Source of the DNA: Candidatus Gastranaerophilales bacterium
Lineage (GTDB): Bacteria; Cyanobacteriota; Vampirovibrionia; Gastranaerophilales; Gastranaerophilaceae
Direction of reading: 5' to 3'
Assembly: GCA_944323285.1 (NCBI GenBank)
Contig: CALURV010000032.1
Span: 1 to 64,000 of the forward strand
DNA: 64,000 nucleotides
Shown here: positions 5,434 through 56,714 of the stretch, piece by piece
How positions within the stretch are numbered: position 1 is the first letter of the stretch
Layout: each line of letters starts with the position of its first letter
The notes under the pieces: generated by a model
The model's input: only the letters and a program-made list of their open reading frames with translations
Databases searched by the model: none
Told to the model about the DNA's origin: nothing
Translations under genes and position numbers: made by a program

Positions 5434-5748
5434 ATGGAAACACAAGAGGATATAGATTTAAAAAGAGTTGGACTAGAACTAATGTTTTTAACCCCTGAAA
5501 AATGCTCAAGATCAGAGGGTATTTCCGCTGTTGAACTTTCTAAATCACTTTCTATGCCGCTTGATATTGTTAAAAAGAAACTAAAAATTCTTCTTGATAA
5601 AGAAATTATAAGAGTATATGGAATAAATCCTAAGTTATGGAAATTTGATGAATTTAAATTTCAGAAAATGGATGAAGATGATGAAGTATATAGACTCTTA
5701 TGCAATTTTGATGATGTAGATTTTGAAAGATACTTTTCTTATAATTAG
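5434..5748 (+). CDS. Small winged-helix-like protein
   Basis: 104 residues. Residues about 28-65 read as a winged helix: ISAVELSKSLSMPLDIVKKK looks like a helix-turn-helix, followed by LKILLDKEIIRVYG as recognition helix and wing. The C-terminal third is acidic (MDEDDEVYRLLCNFDD). It is divergent from the glycosyltransferase operon, sharing about 100 bp of upstream DNA, so a role in regulating that operon is possible but unproven. AGGTAAAAAGAA precedes the ATG. No specific family is recognised. Confidence 0.75.
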   Translation: METQEDIDLKRVGLELMFLTPEKCSRSEGISAVELSKSLSMPLDIVKKKLKILLDKEIIRVYGINPKLWKFDEFKFQKMDEDDEVYRLLCNFDDVDFERYFSYN

Positions 5749-5749
5749 A

Positions 5750-5912
5750 AGCTCTATACAAGTACGATTTTGTTACCTGTGAATGCTCCACAGGTGGGTA
5801 AGAGCCTTAACAAATCCGTTTCCTGCTACAAGGCAGGTCTACTGCATTGTTATTAGAGTCTGCTTTCCCTATTAATCAAGATGTAGGAACAAAATAAATA
5901 CTCATATAGAGC
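5750..5912 (-). ncRNA. Candidate 6S-like regulatory RNA
   Basis: The intergenic stretch folds into a long rod. GCTCTATA at one end pairs with TATAGAGC at the other, then AGTA/TACT, ATTTTGTT/AACAAAAT and CCT/AGG. A central open region follows, then GGG/CCC, AAG/CTT, TAACAA/TTGTTA and a tip hairpin CCTGC/GCAGG. Read on the minus strand, a small hairpin ACCTGTG/CACAGGT sits in the 3' side of the bubble, as in known 6S RNAs. A perfect extended -10 (TGATATAAT) lies 7 bases before the predicted 5' end. Length (about 163 nt) and architecture fit 6S RNA, which binds RNA polymerase. No primary-sequence match was tested. Confidence 0.5.
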
Positions 5913-5914
5913 AT

Positions 5915-7192
5915 TTATATTATATCATATTCTTTTTCTTTTTTCATTATATTTTTTGCTATTTCAATTGCTTTTTCCATCATTAAATCTTTTTGTTTTG
6001 TCTCTGATTTTAATTTTATATCTCTTATATAAATATCAGGAACTATACCACAATTATGAATATCTTCCCCATTTGGCAATATATATTTATTCGAGGTTAA
6101 AATTAACCCAGTATTATTAGACATTGGAATAACTTGTTGTATAGAATTTTTGCCATAAGTATTTTCGCCTATAATTAAAGCACCAAGATTTTCTTTTAGA
6201 GTTCCTGCCAGAATTTCTGCAGCACTTGCTGTATTTTTATTAACTAATATAATTACATTTTTTTTCTTAAATATATTTTCATTACTGGCATATATCTGTA
6301 ATTTATTATTACCTCGCGATTCTATACTTATTATTTTCTCTTCATCTAACATATAATTAGCCATTTCTATAGCATTTGACAAAATTCCGCCATAATTATC
6401 TCTTAAATCAAATATTATCGTTTTAGTATTGTTTGTTAATTTTATAATTTGAAGAAAATCTTTTATTGCCTTATCGCCCATAATTGTAGCCAATGTTATT
6501 ATCGAAATATTATCTGGTAAAATTTTATATTCCATTGTTTTTATAGAAATTTCAGATTTTTTTAAAGTTTTTTCTATTATTTTATTATTTCTCTTCAATT
6601 TTATACTTACATTATTATTCTCTGAAAGACTATCAAATAATAAAGTAGAACTATCTTTAAACTTAGAAACAGCTTTACCATTAATACTTATAACTGTATC
6701 ACCAGGTAAAATTTGGCCTTTTTGAGCAGGAGAATTCTCAAGTACATTATTTACAATAATATTATCTCCGCTTTTATTAAATATTATTCCTACCCCATAA
6801 ACTTTAGAATCAATAATTTGTTTTTGTTTTGTATACAATTCTGTCATCAAAAACTTTGTGTATGGATCATTTAAACTAGTAAGCATTGTATTTATTGCAA
6901 CATTTGCATCTTCCATAGTTTTTATATTTTTTAAATATCTATTTCGCCACTTCATCCAATTTTGATGATTCATTGAACTATCTACATATTCATTTCTGGC
7001 TATTCGCCAGACATTTACAAATAAACGTTGAGGTGCTATTTTTTGGGTTGCTGTTATTTTATCTAACTTATTATATAGAAAATCGAAATTTAATAATTTA
7101 GCAAAATCAATATATAAATTTACTATTATTATTGTAAATAATAAAACAACTGAATAAAATATTACTGCTTTTAATCTTATTTGTTTTTCCAT
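5915..7192 (-). CDS. ctpA: S41 family carboxyl-terminal processing protease
   Basis: 425 residues. An N-terminal membrane anchor (about residues 8-28) is followed by a helical segment, a PDZ domain (about 130-200; YGVGIIFNKSGDN, ILPGDTVISINGKAV) and the S41 protease core. The Ser/Lys dyad is visible: S323 in NTASAAEI and K348 in YGKNSIQQ, 25 residues apart as in Prc/CtpA. It should act in the periplasm, trimming the C-termini of exported or membrane proteins. The ATG has a distant GAGGT. The 6S-like RNA promoter lies in its 3' end. Confidence 0.92.
   Translation of the reverse strand: MEKQIRLKAVIFYSVVLLFTIIIVNLYIDFAKLLNFDFLYNKLDKITATQKIAPQRLFVNVWRIARNEYVDSSMNHQNWMKWRNRYLKNIKTMEDANVAINTMLTSLNDPYTKFLMTELYTKQKQIIDSKVYGVGIIFNKSGDNIIVNNVLENSPAQKGQILPGDTVISINGKAVSKFKDSSTLLFDSLSENNNVSIKLKRNNKIIEKTLKKSEISIKTMEYKILPDNISIITLATIMGDKAIKDFLQIIKLTNNTKTIIFDLRDNYGGILSNAIEMANYMLDEEKIISIESRGNNKLQIYASNENIFKKKNVIILVNKNTASAAEILAGTLKENLGALIIGENTYGKNSIQQVIPMSNNTGLILTSNKYILPNGEDIHNCGIVPDIYIRDIKLKSETKQKDLMMEKAIEIAKNIMKKEKEYDII
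5919..5927 (-). promoter_or_regulatory. Extended -10 promoter of the 6S-like RNA
   Basis: On the minus strand the sequence reads TGATATAAT, a full TGnTATAAT extended -10. Initiation about 7 bases later falls on the first base of the predicted RNA (near 5912). The box sits inside the last codons of the protease gene. No good -35 box is visible, which is usual for extended -10 promoters. Confidence 0.55.
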
Positions 7193-9751: not shown

Positions 9752-9863
9752 TTTATCCGAAAATAATTCACAATAAGCTGAAAGTGTAAGTAAATTTTCG
9801 AGTAACGTTTTCAAAAGGTGAGTGCTTTGTTAATGAACCAACTTTGCTAAGAAAGTACGATAC
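9752..9863 (-). repeat. Modular hairpin repeat, copy A (short form)
   Basis: Reverse-complement copy of the family seen complete at 14143-14325 and 56532-56714, with the central 60-bp module missing. It fills the gap between two convergent genes. Recognisable parts are AATAAGCTGAAAGTGT, TTTTCAAAAGGTGAGT and GTACGATACCAAATTAAA. It is more diverged than the others; its CTTTGTTA hairpin is broken. Confidence 0.85.
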
Positions 9864-9867
9864 CAAA

Positions 9868-10512
9868 TTAAATTAATAAATTTCTGCCGTGTGAATCTGT
9901 ACCACCTGTTTTTATAAGATTATATTTTTCAGCAAGTTCCAATACATAATTTCTTGAATAAAATTTTAAAATTCCTCTTAATCCGTTATAAGGATAATAA
10001 ACTTCCATTCCATCTAACCCAAATTCAATAAGTTCACGTGTCATTTTATCTAGTGAAAAAGACCAACAACAAGCAGGATGTGCCCATACTGCTATTCCGC
10101 CTGCTTCCTTTATTATATCAATAACTATTTTGGGATTTCTAAGCTGAAATAATCTTATAATATTAAACGTTTTTCCTGCTTTTGTTTTAGCACAAATATT
10201 TTTTAATTCTTTATTATCTATATCTATTCCATAGCCAAGTACATGCAATAGAGTTCCTTTATAAAAACAATCAAACTCTACTGCTGGAATAACTATTTCT
10301 TCTGAAAGTATATTTGTATTTAAATATGCATCTATACTATTATGATCACTTATTGCTATATATTTAAGATTTCTTTCTTTTGCCTGTTTTACAATTTCAA
10401 CAGGGGACAACTTTCCATCTGATTCATAAGAATGTATATGCAAATCAACATTTTTATAAAAATCTTCTTGATTAAATGATAATAACAGCTTTTTTAAATC
10501 TTTTTTTATCAT
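9868..10512 (-). CDS. PHP-domain phosphoesterase
   Basis: 214 residues. The PHP metal motifs are in order: VDLHIHSYESDGKLSP, YIAISDHNSIDAY, GGIAVWAHPACCW and KTGGTDSHG. It belongs with the YciV/TrpH-type phosphoesterases (some trim RNA 5' ends or hydrolyse nucleoside bisphosphates). At 214 residues it is shorter than the usual 270-290; it ends just after the last metal motif, but that end is natural (TAA), next to a hairpin repeat. Confidence 0.85.
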   Translation of the reverse strand: MIKKDLKKLLLSFNQEDFYKNVDLHIHSYESDGKLSPVEIVKQAKERNLKYIAISDHNSIDAYLNTNILSEEIVIPAVEFDCFYKGTLLHVLGYGIDIDNKELKNICAKTKAGKTFNIIRLFQLRNPKIVIDIIKEAGGIAVWAHPACCWSFSLDKMTRELIEFGLDGMEVYYPYNGLRGILKFYSRNYVLELAEKYNLIKTGGTDSHGRNLLI

Positions 10513-11776: not shown

Positions 11777-11978
11777 GTTGCATTTGCAACGGCGGGTTAA
11801 TCTAGTATCGTTCTTTGTTACCGAGTTATCCTCGCTAATAAAGTACTCACCTTTTGAAAACTCTGCTCTCATCCGTTTCACCACGGATACAAGCACACTC
11901 AAAAACAATGTTTTTGGTTTGTTTTGTAAAAAAAATTCAATTACTTTTTAGCTTATTTTGTTTTTTTCATCAGACAAC
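11777..11978 (+). repeat. Modular hairpin repeat, copy B (long form)
   Basis: The conserved start TTAATCTAGTATCG is at 11797. It is preceded by a small hairpin GTTGC/GCAAC (11777-11790) not seen in other copies. The body keeps the first hairpin, the central CAAAAACAATGTTTTTG hairpin and a degraded third module. It lies between two co-directional genes. Confidence 0.85.
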
Positions 11979-13373: not shown

Positions 13374-13388
13374 GTATTTAATTAAAAA

Positions 13389-13511
13389 TTTAATCTAGTA
13401 TCGCACTTTGTTACCTTCTCATCCTCGCAAACAAAGTACTCACCTTTTGAAAACGCCACTCGAAAAAATTCACTCACACTTTCAGCTTATCGTGAATTTT
13501 TTCTCGGACAA
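13389..13511 (+). repeat. Modular hairpin repeat, copy C (short form)
   Basis: Starts TTAATCTAGTATCGCAC and ends TTCTCGGACAAAC. Compared with copy D it lacks precisely the 60-bp central module, joining GAAAACGCCACTC to GAAAAAATTCACTC. It sits just beyond the stop of the 65-residue membrane protein gene. Confidence 0.92.
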
Positions 13512-14119: not shown

Positions 14120-14142
14120 TTTACTCAATCTTTCCTGCTTAT

Positions 14143-14325
14143 TTAATCTAGTATCGCACTTTGTTACCTTCTCATCCTCGCTAACAAAGTACTTACCTTT
14201 TAAAAATGCCACTCACCTTCGTTTCACTACGGATACAAGCTCACTCAAAAACAAAGTTTTTGGTTCGTTTTGTAGAAAAAATTCACTCACACTTTCAGCT
14301 TATTGTGAATTTTTTCTCGGACACA
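14143..14325 (+). repeat. Modular hairpin repeat, copy D (complete, 183 bp)
   Basis: Full copy. Module 1: TTAATCTAGTATCG, then CTTTGTTA and TAACAAAG as an inverted pair. Module 2: TTCGTTTCACTACGGATACA and the hairpin CAAAAAC/GTTTTTG. Module 3: GAAAAAATTCACT, TTTCAGCTTAT and GTGAATTTTTTC, which pair with each other. It sits between divergent genes, so it cannot be only a terminator here. Confidence 0.93.
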
Positions 14326-26213: not shown

Positions 26214-26216
26214 AAT

Positions 26217-26288
26217 TTAATCTAGTATCGCACTTTGTTACCGAGTCATCCTCGTTAACGAAGTACTCACCTTTTGAAAATGCTACTC
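26217..26288 (+). repeat. Modular hairpin repeat, copy E (module 1 only)
   Basis: TTAATCTAGTATCGCACTTT through ACCTTTTGAAAATGCTACTC is kept, then the copy stops where module 2 would begin and an unrelated terminator-like hairpin follows. It lies three bases beyond the GH57 stop codon. Confidence 0.88.
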
Positions 26289-27089: not shown

Positions 27090-27096
27090 TATGTCA

Positions 27097-27149
27097 TAGA
27101 AAAAATTAACAATAAGCTGAAAATGTGAGTTTATTTTTCTCGGACAAAC
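27097..27149. repeat. Modular hairpin repeat, copy F (module 3, loop inverted)
   Basis: Only the third module is present. Its right flank TTCTCGGACAAAC is in plus orientation, but the inner loop reads AATAAGCTGAAAATGTGAGT, the reverse complement of the loop in copies C, D and H. The palindromic arms GAAAAAATT/TTTATTTTTC still frame it. Confidence 0.8.
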
Positions 27150-43937: not shown

Positions 43938-43980
43938 AAAAATCCAGTATCGCACTTTGTTATCTAGGCATCCTCGCTAT
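43938..43980 (+). repeat. Modular hairpin repeat, copy G (fragment of module 1)
   Basis: CAGTATCGCACTTTGTTATC and CATCCTCGCTAT match module 1; the rest is replaced by a terminator hairpin. As in copy E, the break is close to a new hairpin. Confidence 0.75.
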
Positions 43981-56513: not shown

Positions 56514-56531
56514 TATTTTGCCCAATTAAAT

Positions 56532-56714
56532 TTAATCTAGTATCGTTCTTTGTTACCGAGTCATCCTCGCTAACAAAGTACTCACCTTTTAAAAACTCTG
56601 CTCACCTTCGTTTCACTACGGATACAAGCTCACACAAAAACAAAGTTTTTGGTTCGTTTTGTAAAAAAAATTCACTCACACTTTCAGCTTATCGTAAATT
56701 TTTTCTCGGACAAA
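56532..56714 (+). repeat. Modular hairpin repeat, copy H (complete, 183 bp)
   Basis: Same length and module order as copy D 42 kb away: TTAATCTAGTATCG, CTTTGTTACCGAG/CTCGCTAACAAAG, TTCGTTTCACTACGGATACA, CAAAAAC/GTTTTTG, AAAAATTCACTCACACTTTC and TTTTCTCGGACAAA. Differences from D are scattered single bases. Lies between convergent genes. Confidence 0.94.

Follow-up and report, generated by a model that had tools for sequence, protein, structure and literature searches.

A modular hairpin repeat at eight places in the window

The window analyzed here, a 64,000-nucleotide stretch of Candidatus Gastranaerophilales DNA, lies on contig 32 of a MAG of 1.86 Mb with 97% completeness. It carries eight mutually related places, which a sequence-only reading had described as copies of a hairpin repeat. 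BLAST searches with the two 183 bp copies, D and H, recovered all eight, and a covariance model recovered seven. D and H matched each other within the window with an E value of 2e-73. For comparison we used a sibling genome (G058), Candidatus Gastranaerophilales MAG BRZ_AN__bin63, which shows 85% protein identity at the neighboring prenyl synthase gene. The window also holds a 6S RNA gene on the minus strand at 5747-5915 (Rfam RF00013). The eight places are as follows.

9754..9873 (folding strand +), copy A: complete short form without the middle module; empty in the sibling
~11795..11976 (-), copy B: complete but diverged three-module form, hairpin 1 end degenerate
13388..13510 (folding strand -), copy C: complete short form, 123 bp, without the middle module; empty in the sibling
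14141..14323 (folding strand -), copy D: complete 183 bp form, with hairpin 2 at ~14141-14214, the middle module at ~14215-14274 and hairpin 1 at ~14275-14323; empty site in the sibling
26215..26288 (-), copy E: fragment, hairpin 2 module alone
27092..27146 (+), copy F: fragment, hairpin 1 alone, palindromic TGTCATAG...CTCGGACA; orthologous place in the sibling also occupied
43938..43980 (-), copy G: part of a hairpin 2 module (fragment); the sibling has it at the same place, and the flanks are nearly identical
56530..56712 (folding strand -), copy H: complete 183 bp form

At the place orthologous to 26215-26288, the sibling carries a complete copy that runs in the other direction (G058:C5:164673-164851), adjoining a terminator-like hairpin.

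The strand that folds is the opposite of the one on which the repeat had been read. On this strand, the short form consists of TGTCCGAG, hairpin 1, the stretch GAGTGGC..AAAA (the spacer after hairpin 1, GAGTGGC..TTTTNAAAA) and hairpin 2 with a GATGA-like loop, and it ends in AGATTAAAT; this core is ~123 bp. The 183 bp form is the core plus a middle module of ~60 bp. As the sequence-only reading had stated, the element contains no ORF and lacks long terminal inverted repeats. Its length of 183 bp for D and H also stood; its limits did not, since empty sites and end conservation place the true ends 2 bp further left (ATTTAATC...CGGACA). The repeat is modular and made of hairpins as proposed, but with two conserved hairpins and an optional middle module rather than three hairpin modules. 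In ~0.85 Mb of the host and ~0.78 Mb of the sibling, the commonest forms were the three-module form (35 and 38 copies, respectively), the two-module form (29 and 22) and single end modules. By description, pneumococcal BOX elements, from an unrelated taxon, are likewise modular with an optional middle module. The element reaches up to 367 bp in some relatives, where its stems are GC-rich and further inner modules are present. In the longer relatives at L254, L255, L259, L261, L262 and L268, extra inner hairpin modules (one of them in tandem) are inserted at set positions within the core.

Base pairing in both hairpins is maintained through compensatory changes. In an alignment of 18 sequences from eight species, made without reference to structure, 12 of the 29 pairs had changed on both sides, a number that none of 500 shuffles reached. 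An alignment of 44 matches fitted to the model, which is biased towards structure, gave 20 of 29 doubly changed pairs, and 95.6% of its cells were able to pair compared to 35-52% in slid controls. The frequent G.U pairs at several positions imply that the folding strand, and not its complement, is the structured one. In 34 of the 36 copies listed, CCGA, CTGA or CAGA lies ahead of hairpin 1 at a distance of 0-1 base from its stem; hairpin 2 has no such motif before it. The loop of hairpin 2 was inverted in 7 of 83 readable copies and that of hairpin 1 in 3 of 113. Places where the hairpin 1 loop is inverted and the stem kept are G058:C7:70040-70221, G058:C7:81911-82092, G000:C24:254279-254398 and G000:C24:265154-265274.

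Copy number and lineage distribution

A first look at the host gave 176 candidates, of which 40 were scored and all 40 were near full-length matches. At least 102 places match the covariance model, so the repeat is far from limited to the eight copies of the window. The earlier expectation that the genome would hold hundreds was right about high copy number and a little high in its figure. Allowing up to 3 mismatches, the 24-mer of the left end occurred 112 times in the 1.86 Mb of the host (61 forward and 51 reverse) against 0 for the reversed control, far more often than chance would give. The element accounts for ~1.4% of the host sequence that was read, and a rough ORF-based estimate puts its share of the host intergenic DNA at ~15%. 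Not one of 197 counted copies lay inside an ORF; all were intergenic, in divergent, convergent and co-directional gaps, as had been described from the window. Some MAG contigs end inside the element.

The covariance-model search of relatives, which the sequence-only reading had suggested, found matches in 31 of the 36 genomes of the genus set. With at most 99 candidates scored per genome, the host included, the copy numbers are lower bounds: at least 112 in the sibling, 76 in G007, 71 in G030 and 58 in G009. Within the genus, copy number ranges from 0 to more than 100. Several copies in G007 have identical scores, which suggests, without proving, a recent burst of copies. Across the order, where 12 candidates were scored per genome and numbers are again lower bounds, 51 of 286 genomes and 10 of 50 genera matched, all in one family except for three weak cases. 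In a phylum-wide sample, all 29 matching genomes (of 386) belonged to that one Gastranaerophilales family. The element is therefore not species-specific; it extends across the genus and is found in several genera of that family.

The repeat had been put forward as an unrecognized family, and Rfam gave no match over the element at either gathering or relaxed thresholds. Phage and plasmid records contained no match, one exact-pattern scan of viral contigs found no element, and searches of open-licence papers turned up no repeats described for the order Gastranaerophilales.

Empty sites, target sequence and replication polarity

Empty orthologous sites, proposed earlier as a check, were found: at loci that are otherwise collinear (75-90% identity), copies A, C and D are missing from the sibling. 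For copy B, the empty site in the sibling was not clean. At clean sites the two flanks join up exactly: those of copy D are CCTGCTT + CAATTATAC, compared to CCTGCTTCATTTATAC in the sibling, and those of copy C are AATTAAAA + AACTA, compared to AATTAAAAAACTA. For one sibling copy, GTACAATAGGAGTA + TAAAAAAGAG corresponds to GTACAATAGGAGTATAAAAAAAGG. For 39 complete copies within the stretches read from the two genomes, the corresponding place was located in the other species; 16 of these places were empty and the rest occupied or changed. Sister species differ at many element sites. At most clean sites, the best-fitting target duplication was 0 or 1 base, and where it was 1, runs of A or T mostly left the call ambiguous. 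Sites that fitted 3, 7 or 12 bases, or small deletions, were in the minority. Flank statistics over ~0.85 Mb of the host and ~0.78 Mb of the sibling gave no convincing signal of target duplication. At clean sites, insertion is precise and leaves no target duplication, and the element family is real, mobile, conserved in structure and specific to its lineage.

The target preference lies on one side only. Counted on the folding strand, an A stands at position -4 of the insertion in 66 of 74 copies (p 3e-17), and ADWW precedes the insertion in 55 of 74 copies compared to 19% in intergenic DNA; the other flank is at background level with no preference. The target is a loose A-D-W-W and not a fixed tetranucleotide. 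The A at -4 is invariant in the 3' end of the element itself (GATT-A-R-A-T).

Of 197 copies, 140 had their folding strand on the G-rich strand; among those where |skew| exceeded 0.1, the figure was 56 of 66 (85%). In co-directional gaps with genes running against the skew, it was still the G-rich strand in 16 of 23 cases. The strand bias follows GC skew, independent of gene direction. By the usual sign of GC skew, and not by a mapped origin, the G-rich strand is taken to be the leading strand, which has the same sequence as the lagging-strand template.

The mobilizing enzyme and mode of movement

No Y1 transposase domain was detected in the host or sibling genome. Nor was a RAYT detected in either, although a RAYT-type gene elsewhere had been suggested as the partner of a REP-like element. 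Y1/RAYT genes occur in ~11 species of the genus, with pseudogenes or contig-edge fragments in others, and most RAYT genes of sister species are flanked by GTAG-type REP hairpins of unrelated sequence, which are a separate REP system in the genus. RAYTs with their own GTAG-type REP hairpins (e.g., GTAGGGTGCAATTTTTTGCACC) lie at L222, L223, L225, L226, L228, L230, L246 and L247. A second RAYT clade, at L227, L229, L232, L235 and L250, has no evident adjoining GTAG repeats, and some of its members are contig-cut or pseudogenes. Among 32 Y1 loci, the covariance model found the element convincingly near only one, a RAYT remnant in G022, where a copy (L251 811-927) lies a few hundred bases away. Presence of Y1/RAYT among relatives does not track element copy number, and the ends of the TnpA locus of G032 are unrelated to the element.

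For class 3 Y1 proteins, the stretches read gave no match to PF01797, a profile that is not class-3-specific, and no ORF with an HUH...Y motif; two matches from an HUH-motif scan of their ORFs were both false. IS91-type Y2_Tnp gave no match in a search whose control likewise matched nowhere. No reverse transcriptase (PF00078) was found in the host, the sibling and most high-copy relatives. No autonomous copy, in which matching ends would enclose a transposase gene, was found in ~0.85 Mb of the host and ~0.78 Mb of the sibling. There were five spaced pairs of opposite ends, one of them 63 bp apart and the other four enclosing ordinary genes only.

IS200/IS605 elements have no inverted repeats, produce no duplication, insert 3' of a tetra- or pentanucleotide, carry hairpins at both ends and use the lagging-strand template (PMC7290912, PMC6006769). 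The features of our element match these hallmarks and so fit single-strand transposition. We infer that it is probably a non-autonomous element moved as single-stranded DNA by a trans-acting transposase of the IS200/IS605 kind (HUH, one tyrosine); movement in trans, which the sequence-only reading had suggested as one possibility, is apparently correct. In our model, the folding strand forms the two conserved hairpins that mark both ends, and the transposase would bind them. Cleavage would follow a short A-rich tetranucleotide (the element itself ends 3' in A-R-A-T). Where the lagging-strand template exposes a similar tetranucleotide, A-D-W-W, the enzyme would paste the element in 3' of it, with no duplication of the target.

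Among the closest known systems are the PATEs, ends-only derivatives of IS200/IS605, which share a hairpin at each end, the lack of an ORF and of inverted repeats, the absence of target duplication, insertion 3' of a tetranucleotide and the expected lagging-template bias (PMC7290912, PMC6006769). However, no parent IS or TnpA with the element's ends was found, the element's structure is much more elaborate, is modular and has been conserved across genera through compensatory change, and its copy number is much higher than that of the single PATE reported (PMC7290912). It would work like an ends-only IS200/IS605 element, but we do not class it with them, since a search for the transposase that defines the group came up empty. 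REP/REPIN sequences with RAYTs are likewise hairpins that occupy intergenic DNA in high copy number, and a single-strand enzyme acting in trans is presumed to move them. Our element, in contrast, has no GTAG foot, is longer (120-183 bp) with two different hairpins in fixed order, starts with TGTCCGAG, with CGTC in rare copies only, and lacks a RAYT in host and sibling, in a genus whose GTAG REPs around RAYTs are separate. CGTC-tagged palindromic repeats are likewise a hairpin family for which no dedicated transposase was found; they are single 20-40 bp hairpins, often head-to-head dimers (PMC3733652), whereas our element is a fixed two-hairpin unit that starts with TGTC and rarely CGTC. The bacterial MITEs RUP and Correia/NEMIS are alike in size, intergenic position and an internal insert giving long and short forms, but they have terminal inverted repeats and a TA-type target duplication (PMC2229807), and our element has neither.

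Four other explanations were weighed against single-strand transposition by an IS200/IS605-like enzyme. It is unlikely that the element is RNA-borne, resembling a tiny derivative of a group II intron whose folding-strand transcript enters DNA at replication forks through either reverse splicing or target-primed reverse transcription. One structured strand with frequent G.U pairs would suit such an RNA, and precise, duplication-free insertion with lagging-template bias also fits retromobility into single-stranded DNA, but Rfam detected no group II match and no domain V, and PF00078 is missing from the genomes named above. Quite unlikely, too, is single-strand transposition by a RAYT that has since been lost from the host bins or sits in an unassembled gene. 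The ~11 species with Y1/RAYT genes and the remnants in others speak for it, and since contigs can end inside the element, our guess is that the bins may have lost a short gene lying between copies. Against a RAYT stand the unrelated GTAG-type hairpins around most RAYT genes, the single convincing association among 32 Y1 loci, and the fact that high-copy species may be without RAYTs and RAYT species without copies.

Polar chromosome motifs are strand-biased, and a DNA landmark or regulatory hairpin (in chromosome organization, termination or mRNA ends) under host selection could have spread secondarily, with the bias reflecting function. The strongly conserved structure and the lack of copies inside ORFs agree with this. 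We consider it very unlikely, because positions are poorly kept between siblings (16 empty of 39 placed), the bias tracks GC skew rather than gene direction and copy number varies so widely within the genus. A MITE moved by an ordinary DDE transposase, in line with the earlier comparison to MITEs, would also be short, AT-rich, without an ORF and high in copy number. It is highly improbable here: the ends are asymmetric without proper terminal inverted repeats, the replication-strand bias speaks against it, and the clean empty sites without target duplication contradict it. An IS110 bridge-RNA element, with guide loops pairing with a long target, was set aside because the targets share only ~4 bases.

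Returning to the single-strand model, the element may, tentatively, belong to a class of its own: a single-strand-transposed structured element, old in one Gastranaerophilales family, moved by an enzyme that is not a recognized Y1, kept by structure and not sequence, with inner modules gained and lost. Repeats associated with Y1 class 3 carry a CnGA tetranucleotide at the hairpin foot (PMC6006769), and the CnGA motif before hairpin 1 recalls these repeats near rare class 3 proteins and may serve as a lead. A single natural system, found in uncultured gut bacteria that lack genetics, here brings together a conserved structure, clean insertion and polarity relative to replication, and it makes the question of the mobilizing enzyme directly testable. 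Contigs in these MAGs also end at the element, and it could be used as a strain marker.
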